Shown here piece after piece: positions 4,047-12,216 of a stretch of DNA of 12,216 nt. Under the pieces are notes generated by a model. That model saw only the letters and a list, made by a program, of their open reading frames with translations. It did not search any database and had not been told where the DNA came from. The stretch is from NCBI GenBank assembly GCA_022827045.1, contig JAJDTQ010000176.1, forward strand, positions 1 through 12,216. The letters run 5' to 3'. How positions within the stretch are numbered: the stretch's first letter is position 1; every line of letters starts with the position of its first letter. A program made the position numbers and the translations under genes. This DNA comes from Candidatus Binatia bacterium. Lineage in GTDB: Bacteria; Desulfobacterota_B; Binatia; UBA9968; JAJDTQ01.

Positions 4047-4082
4047 GATTGCTCCTACTGGTAGTTCGATAGCCCAGGCCTT

Positions 4083-4120
4083 CACTCGGCCTTCGGCCAC
4101 CCTCTCCCAGAGGGAGAGGG
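4083..4120 (+). repeat. GGCC/CCCTCTCCC hairpin repeat, forward copy
   Basis: Shares GGCCTTCGGCCACCCTCTCCC with the copies at 7571 and 11459 and contains the inverted repeat CCCTCTCCC-AGA-GGGAGAGGG. With the reverse copy at 4171-4203 and a small hairpin between them (GCTCTCC and GGAGAGC, 4135-4151), it forms a cluster of three hairpins in the divergent gap between the molybdenum hydroxylase and amidohydrolase genes. Confidence 0.75.
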
Positions 4121-4170
4121 TTAATATGGCTCCGGCTCTCCTTGGGAGAGCGGCTCACCTCCCTCTGTCC

Positions 4171-6102: not shown

Positions 6103-6137
6103 GCCCTGATCCTCTCCCAGAGGAAGAGGATCAGGGC
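6103..6137. repeat. 13-bp-arm perfect hairpin after the amidohydrolase gene
   Basis: GCCCTGATCCTCT (6103-6115) pairs perfectly with AGAGGATCAGGGC (6125-6137) around a 9-nt loop. It begins six bases after the amidohydrolase stop codon. The stem is strong enough for a transcript 3' end, but the next bases are CGCTACAACCCC with no T-run, so it may act as an mRNA-stabilising hairpin rather than an intrinsic terminator. Confidence 0.55.
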
Positions 6138-6145
6138 CGCTACAA

Positions 6146-6190
6146 CCCCTCTCCCTCTGGGAGAGGGTGGCCGCAGGCCGGGTGAGGGCC
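6146..6190 (-). repeat. GGCC/CCCTCTCCC hairpin repeat, reverse copy
   Basis: CCCTCTCCC-TCT-GGGAGAGGG followed by TGGCCGCAGGCCGGGTGAGGGCC is the reverse complement of the unit found at 7571 and 11459. It lies between the amidohydrolase and Rieske genes, inside the pair of 12-bp direct repeats. Confidence 0.75.
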
Positions 6191-6217
6191 TAGGCGCTCA
6201 CCAAACCCGAGTTCAAG

Positions 6218-6602: not shown

Positions 6603-7571
6603 ATGACCCTTGATCCATCACCGGCGGGAAGGGCGGGTCCGGCCGGCGACATCCGGAGCCCCTTTGACGCGATTCTCCTCATCGCCTTCGGCGGTCCGGA
6701 AAGACCCGGCGAGATCCGCCCGTTCCTCGAACGCGTGACCGCCGGACGGCGCATCCCGCCGGCGCGCCTCGAGGCGGTGGCGCGTCACTACGAGTTTATC
6801 GGCGGCCGCTCGCCGCTGAACGAGCTCACCCGCGCACAGGCCGATGCCTTGCGCCGGCGGCTGGAGGGGCGCGGAGCGGCCGTCCCGGTTTACGTGGGAA
6901 TGCGCAACTGGCGCCCGTTTCTGGACGAGGCTCTGGCCGAGTTGACGGCGGACGGTTGCCGGCGGGTGTTGGGGATCATCCTCTCGGCGTTCCAGACCGA
7001 GGCATCCTGGGGCCGGTATATCAGCGCCGTGGAAACCGCCCGCGAGGCCATGACGGTCGGCACCCCCGCGGTGGAGTATGCCCGGCCCTGGTCGCGCCAT
7101 CCGCTGTTCATCCAGGCCGTGGCCGACCGCGTGTCCGCCACCGCCGGCGAGATGCCGCAGGCTTTTCGGGATGCCCCGCTGGTGTTCACCGCCCACAGCA
7201 TACCACGGCCCATGGCCGATGGTTCCCCCTACGCCGCCCAGTTCCGGGAGGCGTCGCGGCGGGTGGCCCAAAGTCTCGGGCGGTCCCACTGGACGCTGGC
7301 GTACCAGAGCCGCAGCGGCAACCCCCGCGACCCCTGGCTGGAGCCCGACGTGGGCGACGTCATCGAGGAACTGGCGAGAGCGGGTGAGAAGGCGGTCATC
7401 GTGGTGCCCATCGGTTTCGTCTGCGACCATGTCGAGATCCTCTACGACCTCGATGTCGACGCCCGGCAAAGAGCTCGGGAGCTGGGAATGGACTTCTACC
7501 GGGCTCCCGCGCTCAACGACCACCCCTTGTTCATCGACATGCTCGCCGAGATCGTTTCGGCATCCCGTTAG
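6603..7571 (+). CDS. hemH: ferrochelatase (proto- or coproporphyrin)
   Basis: Inserts Fe2+ into a porphyrin during heme synthesis. The 322-residue product is of normal length for the single-domain bacterial enzyme. Visible signatures are AFGGP at 28-32, the VGMRNWRPFL segment at 98-107, VFTAHSIP at 194-201 with the metal-binding H198, and GFVCDHVEILYDLD at 271-284 with the conserved acid E278. Only two cysteines are present, so the 2Fe-2S cluster of some ferrochelatases is unlikely. Whether it uses protoporphyrin IX or coproporphyrin III cannot be settled here; no chdC/hemQ, hemG or hemY neighbour is visible. ATG 6603 has no clear Shine-Dalgarno sequence, but no better start precedes AFGGP, and it follows the Rieske gene by 21 nt. 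The first 20 residues are a low-complexity extension before the core. Stop TAG abuts a repeat. Confidence 0.92.
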   Translation: MTLDPSPAGRAGPAGDIRSPFDAILLIAFGGPERPGEIRPFLERVTAGRRIPPARLEAVARHYEFIGGRSPLNELTRAQADALRRRLEGRGAAVPVYVGMRNWRPFLDEALAELTADGCRRVLGIILSAFQTEASWGRYISAVETAREAMTVGTPAVEYARPWSRHPLFIQAVADRVSATAGEMPQAFRDAPLVFTAHSIPRPMADGSPYAAQFREASRRVAQSLGRSHWTLAYQSRSGNPRDPWLEPDVGDVIEELARAGEKAVIVVPIGFVCDHVEILYDLDVDARQRARELGMDFYRAPALNDHPLFIDMLAEIVSASR

Positions 7572-7637
7572 GCCCTCACCCGGCCTTCGGCCACCCTCTC
7601 CCATGGGGAGAGGGGTTGTGTTTGATTACTCGGACAG
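7571..7637 (+). repeat. 67-bp composite repeat, probably the hemH 3' end
   Basis: Begins GGCCCTCACCCGGCC at the last base of the hemH stop codon, carries the hairpin CCCTCTCCC (7594-7602), ATG, GGGAGAGGG (7606-7614) followed by GTTGTGTTTG, and ends TTGATTACTCGGACAG. The unit at 11459-11525 is the same length and nearly identical. The stem plus T-rich tail makes it a plausible terminator for hemH. It then reads ACTCCC instead of GACACTA, so its right end has diverged. Confidence 0.75.
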
Positions 7638-8866: not shown

Positions 8867-9637
8867 ATGTACACGCTAAAGCTGGCCCTGATCGTCCTTG
8901 GAAGCATTCTCCAGAGCATTCCCATCATCGCCCTCGGGCTCGTGGACCCCAACGGCAGGCGCGTCTATCCCATGTTCCGGTTCTGGTCGTGGTGCGTGCT
9001 CAAGACCGGCGGCGTGGGGCTGACCGTCCGTCAGGTCGGGCGTTTGGATCCGGAACAGACCTACGTCTTCATGGCCAATCACCAGAGCAACATCGACATA
9101 CCGGTGCTGGTGCGGGCGCTCGGGCCGTTTCAGCTGCGGTGGATGGCGAAGCGGGAGCTGCTCCGCATCCCGTTCTTCGGCTGGGCGCTGTGGGCCTCCA
9201 AGCACATTGTCGTCAAACGCGCCCGATCGAAAGACGTGGCGGTGGCCATGGCGACCGCCTGCGAGAAGCTGGGAAAGGGGATATCGGTGGTGGTGTTTCC
9301 CGAAGGCACCCGTAGCGTGGACGGACAGCTTCTGCCGTTCAAGCGAGGCGGGTTTCGCCTGGCCGAGAAGGCAGGCGTTGCCATCGTGCCGGTCACCATC
9401 AACGGCTCCGGTTTGCTGATGAAGCGGGGAGACTGGCGTCTCAAGCCCGGGACCGTCGAGGTCGTCATCGGCGAGGCGATTCCTTCCGACGACGCGGACG
9501 ATCGTTCCCGTCGCCAGATGCAGCGGGTCCGGGAGGCCATAGGCTCGAACCTGGCACGGCCCGGTGCGGGGTCCGGCGAGAGCGCCCCGATGTGGCGTAC
9601 CGAGGGCCTCCCGCCTGCCACAGGCCGTGAGGTCTAG
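8867..9637 (+). CDS. plsC: 1-acyl-sn-glycerol-3-phosphate acyltransferase
   Basis: Acylates lysophosphatidic acid to phosphatidic acid at the inner membrane, the second acylation of phospholipid synthesis. The 256-residue product starts with a hydrophobic segment (residues 5-26) that should anchor it. It has the catalytic NHQSNID block with H72 and D77, WMAKRELLRIPFFGW at 92-106, the substrate-binding FPEGTRS at 144-150 and VPVTING at 174-180. Length fits the family. ATG 8867 has no clear Shine-Dalgarno sequence. After about residue 230 the sequence is low-complexity and probably dispensable. The stop codon TAG (9635-9637) is made by the first three bases of the inverted-repeat element that follows. 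Without the element, the stop would directly abut the ATG of rnj, so the two genes were probably a translationally coupled pair. Confidence 0.92.
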   Translation: MYTLKLALIVLGSILQSIPIIALGLVDPNGRRVYPMFRFWSWCVLKTGGVGLTVRQVGRLDPEQTYVFMANHQSNIDIPVLVRALGPFQLRWMAKRELLRIPFFGWALWASKHIVVKRARSKDVAVAMATACEKLGKGISVVVFPEGTRSVDGQLLPFKRGGFRLAEKAGVAIVPVTINGSGLLMKRGDWRLKPGTVEVVIGEAIPSDDADDRSRRQMQRVREAIGSNLARPGAGSGESAPMWRTEGLPPATGREV

Positions 9638-9797
9638 TGTCCTGTCCCGTAAATTCGCGTGATAAGTCGCGCAGGATTTTTCGTCGTCGGCAAGGCGCGA
9701 TGACGAGCAGTGGCGGGCACCACGCGAGGAAGAGCAACGCAGCCGACGGCGAAAAAGACAAGCGAATTATCATGCGAATTTACGGGACAGGACACTA
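9635..9797. mobile_element. 163-bp MITE-like inverted-repeat element
   Basis: The ends are TAGTGTCCTGTCCCG (9635-9649) and its exact complement CGGGACAGGACACTA (9783-9797). The outer 31 bases of each arm match at 30 positions. Pairing resumes further in (TTTTTCG...CGTCGGC against GCCGACG...CGAAAAA), giving about 56-bp arms around a roughly 50-base centre. There is no coding capacity. Both ends are TA within CTAG, and removing the element with one TA leaves CTAG, matching the TA-duplicating, CTAG-preferring insertion described for IS630-type transposons. Which transposase mobilised it is not visible in the window. Confidence 0.85.
9789..9792 (+). promoter_or_regulatory. AGGA ribosome-binding site of rnj, inside the element end
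   Basis: AGGA ends six bases before the rnj ATG and is part of the element's right arm (ACAGGACACTA). In the folded RNA it would pair with TAGTGTCCT at the left arm, so the site is buried unless a ribosome or nuclease opens the base of the stem. The presumed ancestral site, GAGG at 9629-9632, now lies on the far side of the element. Confidence 0.5.
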
Positions 9798-9798
9798 G

Positions 9799-11454
9799 AT
9801 GGAGTCCCTGAGGGTCGTGCCTCTCGGAGGCCTGGGAGAGTTCGGCTGCAACATGCTGGCGGTGGAGTGGGGCGATGCCGTGATCGCCGTCGACTGCGGC
9901 GTGATGTTCCCTGGCCCCGAGCTCCTGGGCGTCGATCTCGTGATTCCCGACATCAGCTATCTGGTGGATCAGGGGAAGAACCTCGGCGCCATCGTCCTGA
10001 CCCATGCCCACGAGGATCACATCGGCGCGTTGCCCTACGTCCTCCGGCGCTGCCCGGTTCCCGTATACGGCACCCGCCTCACCCTGGGCTTCGTGCGCCA
10101 CAAGCTGCGCGAGCACAGGCTCGAGGAATCCGTCGATCTCGTTGAAATCGTACCCGGCGAGCGTTTCACGCTCGGTCCTTTCACGATCGAGGGGATATCC
10201 GTAACCCACAGCCTGGTAGACTGCATCGGCCTGGCCATCGAGACGCCGGTGGGTTGCATCGTGCACACCGGCGATTTCAAGATCGACAACACCCCAGTGG
10301 GTGGCGAGAGCTTCGACTTTCATCGTTTCGCGGCCTACGGAGACAACGGCGTCCTGCTGTTGCTCTCGGACTCCACCAACGTCGAGCGCGCGGGCAGCAC
10401 GCCGTCGGAACGCGCGGTCGGGGAAGGGCTTCGGGGGGTCTTCGGGTCCAGTCCGGGACGGATCTTCATCGCCACGTTCGCCTCCCACATCCCGCGCATT
10501 CAACAGGTGGCGGAGCTGGCCGCCGATTTCGGGCGCAAGCTGGTGCTGAGCGGCCGGAGCATCATCAACAACACCGGTATCGCCGCGGACCTGGGCTATC
10601 TCCGCCTGCCGCACGACGTCATGACGGACAGCCAGAGCTGGCAGGACTTCGCCGACGACCAGCTCTGTTTCCTCACCACCGGAAGCCAGGGAGAGCCCCT
10701 TTCCGTCCTGCACCGCGCCGCCTTCGAGGAGCACCGGTCCATCAGGATCCAGCCGGAGGACACCGTGGTGCTGTCGGCGAGGTTCATCCCCGGAAACGAG
10801 AAGATCATCGGCAACCTCATCGATCACCTCTACCGGCGGGGCGCCCGCGTCCACTACGAACGCACCTCGGAGATTCACGTGTCCGGGCACGCCAGCCAGG
10901 AAGAGCTGAAGACCATGATCCGGCTCACCCGGCCGCGCTACTTCGTCCCCGTGCACGGAGAGCTCCGGCAACTGAGCAAACACGTCGAGCTGGCGCGAGC
11001 CGTGGGCGTACCGGCGGACCATTGTTTCCTCCTGGAGAACGGCGACGCGCTGGAATTGACCGCGGACGACGCCTGGCGCGTGGAGCCGGTGGCCACCGGC
11101 AGGGTCTTCGTCGACGGCAAGGGCATCGGCGACGTGGAGGACGTCGTCATCCGGGACCGCCGGCACCTGAGCGAGGACGGGCTCGTGGTGGTGGCCATGG
11201 CGGTTCATCAGCGCACCGGCGAGGTGGCCGCGGGCCCGGACCTGCTGGCCCGGGGCTTCATGCGTTCGGAGGAAGAGGAAGAGGTCCTGGGCACGGCCAG
11301 GACCTCGTTGCGGGAGTACATCGACGGTTGCGGTGTGGAGATCCGCACCGACTCCGCCGAGCTCAAGGAAGGCATACGGAGGTCGTTGCGCAAGTTCTTC
11401 GAGAAGAGGCTGCACCGCCGGCCGGTGATCGTGCCTTATATCATGGAGATGTAG
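9799..11454 (+). CDS. rnj: ribonuclease J
   Basis: A metallo-beta-lactamase/beta-CASP nuclease with 5'-to-3' exonuclease and endonuclease activity in mRNA decay and rRNA maturation. The 551-residue product, normal for RNase J, opens VVPLGGLGEFGCNM and has the zinc motif THAHEDH at 68-74, H137 in SVTHSLVD, and HTGDFKID at 156-163. The beta-CASP domain follows with GRSIINNT, TTGSQGEP, SARFIPGNE and HVSGHA. A C-terminal domain, from about residue 450, ends in SLRKFFEKRLHRRPVIVPYI. ATG 9799 lies one base outside the inverted-repeat element, whose end supplies the AGGA ribosome-binding site. Upstream is plsC, downstream ftsK. The gene is intact with no missing active-site residue. Stop TAG. Confidence 0.96.
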   Translation: MESLRVVPLGGLGEFGCNMLAVEWGDAVIAVDCGVMFPGPELLGVDLVIPDISYLVDQGKNLGAIVLTHAHEDHIGALPYVLRRCPVPVYGTRLTLGFVRHKLREHRLEESVDLVEIVPGERFTLGPFTIEGISVTHSLVDCIGLAIETPVGCIVHTGDFKIDNTPVGGESFDFHRFAAYGDNGVLLLLSDSTNVERAGSTPSERAVGEGLRGVFGSSPGRIFIATFASHIPRIQQVAELAADFGRKLVLSGRSIINNTGIAADLGYLRLPHDVMTDSQSWQDFADDQLCFLTTGSQGEPLSVLHRAAFEEHRSIRIQPEDTVVLSARFIPGNEKIIGNLIDHLYRRGARVHYERTSEIHVSGHASQEELKTMIRLTRPRYFVPVHGELRQLSKHVELARAVGVPADHCFLLENGDALELTADDAWRVEPVATGRVFVDGKGIGDVEDVVIRDRRHLSEDGLVVVAMAVHQRTGEVAAGPDLLARGFMRSEEEEEVLGTARTSLREYIDGCGVEIRTDSAELKEGIRRSLRKFFEKRLHRRPVIVPYIMEM

Positions 11455-11458
11455 GCCA

Positions 11459-11532
11459 GGCCCTCACCCGGCCTTCGGCCACCCTCTCCCAGGGGGGGAG
11501 GGATTGTATTTGATTACTCGGACAGGACACTA
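11459..11532 (+). repeat. composite repeat ending in GGACAGGACACTA
   Basis: The first 67 bases match the unit at 7571-7637 with few differences: GGCCCTCACCCGGCC, the hairpin CCCTCTCCC against a G-run, TTGTATTTGATTACTCGGACAG. It then continues into GACACTA, so its last 13 bases equal the right end of the 163-bp element and the solo copy at 976-988. It fills nearly all of the 84-bp gap between rnj and ftsK and places an AGGA eleven bases before the ftsK ATG. Confidence 0.75.
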
Positions 11533-11538
11533 CGACTC

Positions 11539-12216
11539 ATGCAGAAAGGCTCTCGACTGAATCGTGAACTTTGGGGCTCGGTGGTCCTGGTCACCGCCTG
11601 TTTCGCCGTGCTCAGCCTGTTTTCCTACAGCCCCATGGACCGCTCCTTCAACGTCCCGTCGGGTTCCCCGGACCCCATCAACCTGGGCGGACTGGTGGGC
11701 GCCTACTTGGCGGACGCGTTGCTGCAGGGACTGGGCGTGATCGCTTACGTGTTGCCGGTCATCCTGTTGCTGCTGTCCTTTCGCCTGTTCCGCCGCGATC
11801 CCGGCAGGCCCAGGATCCTCAAGGTCCTCGGATACGGCGTGTTGGTGTGGGGCCTGGCGCTCCTGGTGAGTCTCGTCCACGAAATGGATCTGGCGCGGGA
11901 AAGCGGCGGCGTCCTCGGCGGGTTTTCGAGGGAGTTCCTGACCCAGATGTTCGGCTATGCGGGGACCTGTGTCATCACGGTGTTCCTGCTGCTGGCGGCG
12001 GCGATGCTGCTGTCCCAGACCTCCATGCTGGCGTGGTGGGGCCAGCTCGCGGGGGCCCACCGGAGGCTTCGTTCGACTCTGGGCGCCGGGGTCACCTCGG
12101 GTTGGCGCAAGGTGGAGGGGAAGCCTCCCGCCAACCTCAAGAAGGAGCGGGAGTTCAAGGCGCCGCCCATCGTCATGGAAGAGGAGATCTCCAAGGAACG
12201 CCCCAAGGCGCGCCGC
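11539..12216 (+). CDS. ftsK: DNA translocase FtsK, N-terminal part (runs off the window)
   Basis: FtsK anchors at the division septum and pumps chromosome DNA through to resolve dimers and clear the terminus. Only the first 226 codons lie here, with no stop before the end. The visible part is the 4-TM domain: hydrophobic segments at about residues 11-30, 53-81, 95-114 and 138-160. The conserved loop INLGGLVGAYLADALLQGLG occupies 47-66, as in known FtsK proteins. A charged linker begins after about residue 172. The RecA-like motor and gamma domain would lie beyond the window. ATG 11539 is the only start in this frame near the first membrane segment; AGGA at 11524-11527 is eleven bases upstream, so the ribosome-binding site is weak. 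It follows rnj by 84 bp of repeat. Confidence 0.93.
   Translation, partial: MQKGSRLNRELWGSVVLVTACFAVLSLFSYSPMDRSFNVPSGSPDPINLGGLVGAYLADALLQGLGVIAYVLPVILLLLSFRLFRRDPGRPRILKVLGYGVLVWGLALLVSLVHEMDLARESGGVLGGFSREFLTQMFGYAGTCVITVFLLLAAAMLLSQTSMLAWWGQLAGAHRRLRSTLGAGVTSGWRKVEGKPPANLKKEREFKAPPIVMEEEISKERPKARR

Follow-up and report, generated by a model that had tools for sequence, protein, structure and literature searches.

What is the long palindrome that separates plsC from rnj, and how did it come to lie exactly between a stop codon and a start codon? In the stretch of DNA analysed here (the window, 12,216 nucleotides), the gap between a gene for a plsC-type acyltransferase (Pfam Acyltransferase PF01553, E 1.7e-31) and rnj, whose product has RNase J domains in Pfam, is wholly occupied by a 159-bp imperfect palindrome at 9637-9795 that reads GTGTCC...GGACAC and has TA on either side (9635-9636 and 9796-9797; 163 bp including both TAs). 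The plsC stop is the TAG at 9635-9637, and rnj starts with the ATG at 9799. The arms (38 nt, 9633-9670 and 9762-9799) are 95% complementary, and the predicted RNA fold of the element strand reaches -109 kcal/mol, compared with -50.7 +/- 3.8 for 200 shuffles (z -15.5). The element is short, is without a transposase gene, and has terminal inverted repeats. A first-pass annotation had described an inverted-repeat element filling this gap, with GAGG at 9629-9632 and AGGA six bases 5′ of the rnj ATG, and each was found at its place. The features of the locus are as follows.

8867-9637, plus strand: plsC-type acyltransferase gene, from its ORF and PF01553; the last base of its stop TAG (9635-9637) is common to the element
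9635-9636, no strand: left TA, target duplication and also the TA of the plsC stop, from the sequence and the G001 empty site
9637-9795, plus strand (the core orientation): IS630-type MITE, 159 bp, GTGTCCTGTC...GACAGGACAC, from arms, copies and ends
9637-9670, plus strand: left arm, which pairs with the right arm and covaries between subfamilies, from the arm comparison
9690-9707, plus strand: conserved core, 5′ half, GCAAGGCGCGATGACGAG, from core alignments
9708-9725, plus strand: variable apical stem-loop of the core, from core alignments
9726-9742, plus strand: conserved core, 3′ half, GAGGAAGAGCAACGCAG, from core alignments
9762-9795, plus strand: right arm, from the arm comparison
9789-9792, plus strand: Shine-Dalgarno-like AGGA, six bases 5′ of the rnj ATG and predicted to be buried in the stem, from fold prediction
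9796-9797, no strand: right TA, target duplication, from the sequence and the G001 empty site
9799-11454, plus strand: rnj, ribonuclease J, from its ORF and Pfam

We compared the locus with nine congeneric genomes (G001-G009), a set to which the window's own assembly does not belong. A match to rnj was present in 92 of the 97 relatives searched, including all nine congeners, the nearest of which, G001, shares 50% of the window's sampled 31-mers. Removing the element and one TA from the window leaves GAGGTCTAG directly followed by ATGG, which is identical to the G001 junction; the joined window flanks align with G001 over 300 bases with 0 gaps at 96.3% identity, and the 49 columns around the junction are the same in both. 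The empty TAGATG form that had been deduced for the ancestral plsC-rnj junction is therefore present in G001, as an exact TAG-ATG, and the full element occurs at this junction in none of the nine congeneric genomes. When the joined flanks of those copies described below that have at least 100 bases on each side were searched among the loci compared, only the window gave a clean empty site; in one further match, L281 to L316, the junction sequence was diverged.

Copies elsewhere identify the element as a member of a dispersed family. Copies with perfect 10-bp ends and a length of 157-183 bp number 72 in eight of the nine congeneric genomes (7, 12, 32, 2, 11, 0, 1, 2 and 5 in G001 to G009), and a reversed-pattern control gave 0 matches in the same nine. 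G005 alone holds 39 exact TAGTGTCCTGTC ends and none of the reversed pattern. With the window included there are 73 copies, some of them not independent (L251/L280 and L270/L279, at the least, have a common flank in two genomes), of which 51 are 159 bp; TA flanks the element on both sides in 55 of the 73, and CTA..TAG in 39. The earlier description of the element as MITE-like is borne out by these further copies, all found in congeners since the window's own genome lay outside the search, and the proposed TA duplication and CTAG target agree both with the G001 empty site and with these flanks. No copies were found in 72,556 plasmid records (E 1e-5).

A non-mobile origin, with the hairpin serving the plsC-rnj operon as an ordinary regulatory RNA between the genes or as a terminator, would suit its very stable fold and a conserved core with covarying stems. 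Against this, the full element is absent here from all nine congeners, with G001 cleanly empty, the copies are dispersed and mostly framed by TA, no T-run follows the stem in the window sequence, and no Rfam family matched the window region or 15 relatives' loci at E 0.01. We consider such an origin extremely improbable, and a native operon regulatory RNA at plsC-rnj was ruled out, the site being empty in G001 and the copies dispersed. Judged by sequence comparison, the element is a mobile MITE insertion.

A transposase with matching ends had also been anticipated, and an IS630-family gene in G007 (L223) comes close. Matches to PF13358 (DDE_3) occur in four of the nine genomes (G002, G005, G007 and G009), and neither of the two closest relatives, G003 and G001 (76% complete), gave one. 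The L223 element begins at the contig start; its protein has DDE_3 (1.5e-23) and HTH_29 domains, and its own stop TAG is made up of the right TA and the next base. The element reads TAGTGTCCCGTCCCA ... GACAGGACACTA, and its second end, inverted, is TAGTGTCCTGTCCCA; one of the two ends matches the MITE exactly over 12 bases and the other has one mismatch. Another IS630 relative, L227 in G002, has ends less close to those of the MITE. The element is thus very probably a non-autonomous IS630-type MITE: an IS630-family transposase would have moved it in trans into the TA of the CTAG that holds the plsC stop codon, and its terminal G and C would have restored CTAG, and with it the stop, at the edges.

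Other end types were also seen. At L224 in G009, a MITE (L224:97-259) with ends like GTGTGGTGTC abuts an IS630 (258-1388) with different ends, GTGTTGCGTTTCC, and the ends of another MITE, L324:2586-2748, are close to those of the L224 IS630; MITE end types seem to follow transposase types. The idea that the IS630 copies themselves carry the conserved core was rejected: among eight PF13358 loci only a MITE adjoining the L224 IS matched. Longer variants of 180-204 bp, about 21-22 or 45 bp above 159, occur in G003, G001 and G005 (for example L245, L275 and L288), and the G001/G003 long form has an alternative apical hairpin, TGGGGGCGACCGTAGGTCGCCCCAGGG, in place of CAGTGG.

Why should the insertion coincide with a stop codon? 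With a G at its start and a C at its end, the element restores its target CTAG, and hence TAG, at either edge, and the claim that the element's TAG end rebuilds the plsC stop follows directly. The accompanying idea, that selection kept this insertion for preserving expression of the nuclease, found no support in that form: any CTAG insertion keeps the stop automatically, and the same arrangement is common elsewhere. Using gene calls from a home-made codon-usage gene finder, we found that an element edge is the neighbouring gene's stop codon in 38 of the 73 copies (the left edge in 24, the right in 15, both in L259), a count larger than the number of events because the sites of L251/L280 and L270/L279 are common to two genomes. 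In a wider, overlapping set of copies with a flank of at least 300 bases and recognisable ends (L149-L158, L167 and L168 left out), the figure was 43 of 90. Of 3115 TA sites in general, 73 fall within stop codons. The window insertion follows a rule that holds for the family and does not amount to a special rescue of RNase J.

The distribution of the target itself helps to explain this rule. CTAG occurs only 62 times in 220 kb of G005, against expectations of 684 by composition and 237 under a Markov model, with 19 sites at stop codons, 7 in coding sequence and 36 between genes, so that 55 of the 62 sampled sites lie at stops or between genes; with element ends removed, the 58 free sites divide into 18, 7 and 33, respectively. 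Because CTAG is scarce inside genes and frequent at stops, stop codons commonly offer the element a safe place to land. Stop use nevertheless exceeds this availability (28 of the 39 CTA..TAG copies versus 18 of those 58 free sites; Fisher p = 1.5e-4), suggesting that insertions elsewhere were purged or that the transposase likes gene ends. The excess speaks for a reading in which the element inserts widely and only gene-preserving insertions survive, so that selection and not target choice sets the stop/start position. Set against that reading, the CTAG sites are themselves clustered at stops and in intergenic stretches, rebuilding of the stop by the ends is mechanical, and 35 of the 73 copies lie away from stops; we regard it as possible, though short of probable, and selection may add something beyond target choice. 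Target choice at CTAG, with the stop rebuilt by the element's ends, suggests a low-cost way for a parasite to spread in a gene-dense genome. We found no description of a MITE inserting into stop codons in the accessible parts of PMC2229807, PMC3049150, PMC3189936, PMC4853749, PMC2700814, PMC2996986 and PMC2170065, a set that most subscription journals fall outside.

The first-pass annotation held that the insertion left both genes working. The plsC stop is indeed retained; for rnj, the predicted fold pairs the whole AGGA (9789-9792) within the hairpin, with an unpaired probability of 0.00 at all four bases. Because the AGGA is predicted to be buried, rnj expression may well be changed: it is doubtful that the AGGA alone would keep rnj translated in the modelled fold, and translational coupling or hairpin processing would be needed. 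A transcribed hairpin that hides the rnj ribosome site would be expected to alter rnj expression, perhaps via RNA processing. The window and G001 make a natural with/without pair for RNase J.

The same junction in the other congeners is not uniform. G004, G007 and G008 have TAG-ATG with a different plsC tail, G006 has TAA-ATG, and G005 has TAG, five bases and ATG. In G003 the junction reads ...CCACAGGACACTAGG directly before ATG, a 12-base match to the right end of the element, its TAG included, and in G002 it reads ...GGCAGGACACTAG before ATG, with a match of 11 bases that again includes the TAG; plsC ends in ...GH and the stop in both. The first five of the 12 G003 bases, ACAGG, are likewise present at the end of plsC in G001, and the G003 remnant looks as if a deletion had run between short repeats. 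The match in G009 (...GGGGCACTAG before ATG) covers only 6 bases and may be chance. The plsC-rnj junction thus exists among relatives in filled, empty and probable scar states. Flanking pieces of the window are 95.5-97.2% identical to G001 and 95.6-96.7% identical to G003, identities that do not give the branching order of the three, so the change at the rnj junction carries no date as gain or loss.

A second junction shows a related pattern. Another copy, L273 in G004, ends in TAG-ATG; at this site, where its contig begins, G003 carries the element's right part at the least, G007 and G006 have right-end remnants, G008 is different, and G002 gave no match. The site is empty in G001, G005 and G009, where an ATGA stop/start overlap was read by eye. 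Since these empty genomes read GTCGC or GCCGC in place of CTAG, not every target need have been CTAG. Remnants before a start codon at two junctions suggest that element ends may be left behind as gene ends. Exaptation of element ends as a general rule found no support: of the 39 exact ends in G005, 16 lack a partner end, and among the 11 of these 16 whose loci were examined, a gene stop lies at the edge in 2 and a start within 40 bases in 2.

In MITEs, the ends are usually better conserved than the inside, and here the pattern is reversed, pointing to an RNA or mobility function that spans a phylum and is open to testing. Between subfamilies the arms are very different, yet within each copy they match. 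Over arm positions 11-34 of 49 distinct 159-bp copies (from the 51, with L272 excluded and identical rows merged), 1038 of 1176 cells are Watson-Crick pairs, compared with a mean of 623 (sd 29) and a maximum of 717 in 500 shuffles that dealt the right arms to other copies; positions 45-63 were left out, as the printed pairing there ignores the arm offset. Conserved inside the arms is GCAAGGCGCGAYGACGAG...GAGGARGAGCAACGCAG, in which the middle letters are T with A in 61 of 92 cores, C with G in 18, and rarer forms in 13. The core's asymmetric loop, CAAGGCGCG/GCAACGCAG, is nearly invariant, stacked C-G, G.A and A.G triplets would form in nearer families, and the middle letters would fit C-G pairs set apart by tandem G.A/A.G pairs. 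In a sequence-only alignment of 24 cores, covariation was 0.443 versus 0.153 +/- 0.013 for shuffles (0 of 500 as high), with slid structures reaching at most 0.188; a model-fitted alignment gave 0.570 versus 0.156.

The same core lies within other arms in more distant genomes, and L153, L157 and L158 have quite different ends. Of 395 genomes sampled from the phylum, 38, belonging to 29 of 246 genera, gave matches to a model of the core (R1) at E 0.001, frequently several each, and the other 357 gave none; at most 11 candidates per genome were scored, under stricter filters, so copy numbers are lower bounds. In named genomes, 80 rnj loci totalling 925 kb gave 0 matches to R1 at E 0.1, which serves as a specificity control only. 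Across the matches CAAGGCGCG and GCAACGCAG are mostly retained while stems and ends vary. A conserved folded inner motif that is also present in more distant relatives suggests that the element is more than junk. In G427 (C5, C7 and C9) and L331, the core was seen in tandem pairs about 100 bases apart.

Matching arms could also arise from DNA template switching (quasipalindrome correction) with no RNA function. Such correction would account for arms that differ between subfamilies yet match within each copy, and for the L223 element, whose two ends agree at 15 of the first 16 bases and diverge beyond. The mismatches that remain are a further guide, since selected RNA should show an excess of G.T over A.C whereas DNA arm correction should not. 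On the core strand, the arms of 76 copies carry 38 G.T and 16 A.C events by crude clustering (p = 0.004); 106 loci had yielded 101 usable ones, and 76 were left after an arm check and removal of identical arms, including a few from distant genomes (such as L149, L152 and L156). The lower stem of the core has 26 G.T versus 1 A.C cells in the sequence-only alignment, which become 10 versus 1 after 90% clustering and only 3 versus 1 after 80%, and 14 versus 1 at 70% clustering in the model-fitted alignment, which is biased towards G.U. The apical stem runs the other way, with 1 G.T versus 7 A.C in the model-fitted alignment, as template switching would allow, although the A.C excess is perhaps an alignment effect around the gap there. 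The asymmetry might also stem from strand-biased mutation in transcribed copies. An orientation bias with flanking genes is only suggestive (39 copies agree and 23 are opposed, p 0.056; 32 versus 19 in another count, p 0.09). The surplus of G.U over A.C on one strand in most stems is a hint of selected RNA, and, together with core loops conserved across the phylum, it stands against template switching as the whole explanation, which we think rather unlikely.

Conservation of the core implies that the folded element is under selection, probably as RNA, and selection at the RNA level is our leading inference. More tentatively, the core may be a structured RNA domain that spans the phylum and travels in IS630-type MITEs; their ends would be replaced to suit different transposases, their landing in stop codons would make the core a transcribed module between operon genes, and their ends might be left as new gene ends and ribosome sites. 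We put this broader proposal forward as a conceivable one, with the balance still against it.

Known elements share parts of this picture. RUP of Streptococcus pneumoniae, according to parts of PMC2229807 and PMC3049150, is 107 bp, has ends like IS630-Spn1, a TA target, about 110 intergenic copies and a predicted RNA fold. It resembles the present MITE in its IS630-like inverted ends, TA target, intergenic copies and fold, and differs in that those parts describe it from pneumococcus, whereas the present MITE prefers CTAG and the stop codon and has a core common across a phylum with different ends. Correia/NEMIS elements of Neisseria are MITE hairpins for which RNase III cleavage in adjacent-gene transcripts is proposed in a section of PMC2229807; the likeness is one of description, and RNase III processing is hypothetical here. 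IS630 of Shigella sonnei and ISY100 duplicate TA and have a transposase of the Tc1/mariner group (PMC2170065, in part), and a CTAG preference of IS630 is given in a 1991 title cited there. The present MITE is like both in its TA duplication and like IS630 in CTAG; unlike it, they are autonomous, and stop-codon landing goes unmentioned in the portion of PMC2170065 available. MITEPsy1 of Pseudomonas syringae, as partly described in PMC3189936, is 100 nt, inserts at CTAG or YTAA with a 4-nt duplication, and is ascribed to an IS5-type element; it is short and uses CTAG like the present MITE, and differs in its duplication and its IS5-type source. The 'multicopy nucleotide sequences' catalogued in Geobacter (excerpts of PMC2700814 and PMC2996986) are palindromic multicopy intergenic families in a deltaproteobacterial genus, comparable with the present MITE by description only. 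The mechanism, IS630-type insertion at TA in CTAG, is ordinary; the stop-codon rule is instructive and the conserved core unexpected.

Further repeats lie in the window. Between rnj and the next gene (11455-11538), which has an FtsK 4TM domain and by frame an ATG at 11539, lies another repeat that ends in GGACAGGACAC-TA (11520-11532), the same right end as the MITE. This rnj-FtsK gap is empty in G001, TAGGGGCTCATG, and in G003 it holds a MITE copy four bases after the rnj stop, cut by the contig end. A second multicopy repeat, AGGCCCTCACCCGGCC...CCCTCTCCC...GGGAGAGGG, occurs at 4076-4143, 6124-6195 (inverted), 7570-7637 and 11458-11525; these four copies in 12 kb have 66-94% identity, and two of them continue as GATTACTCGGACAG.
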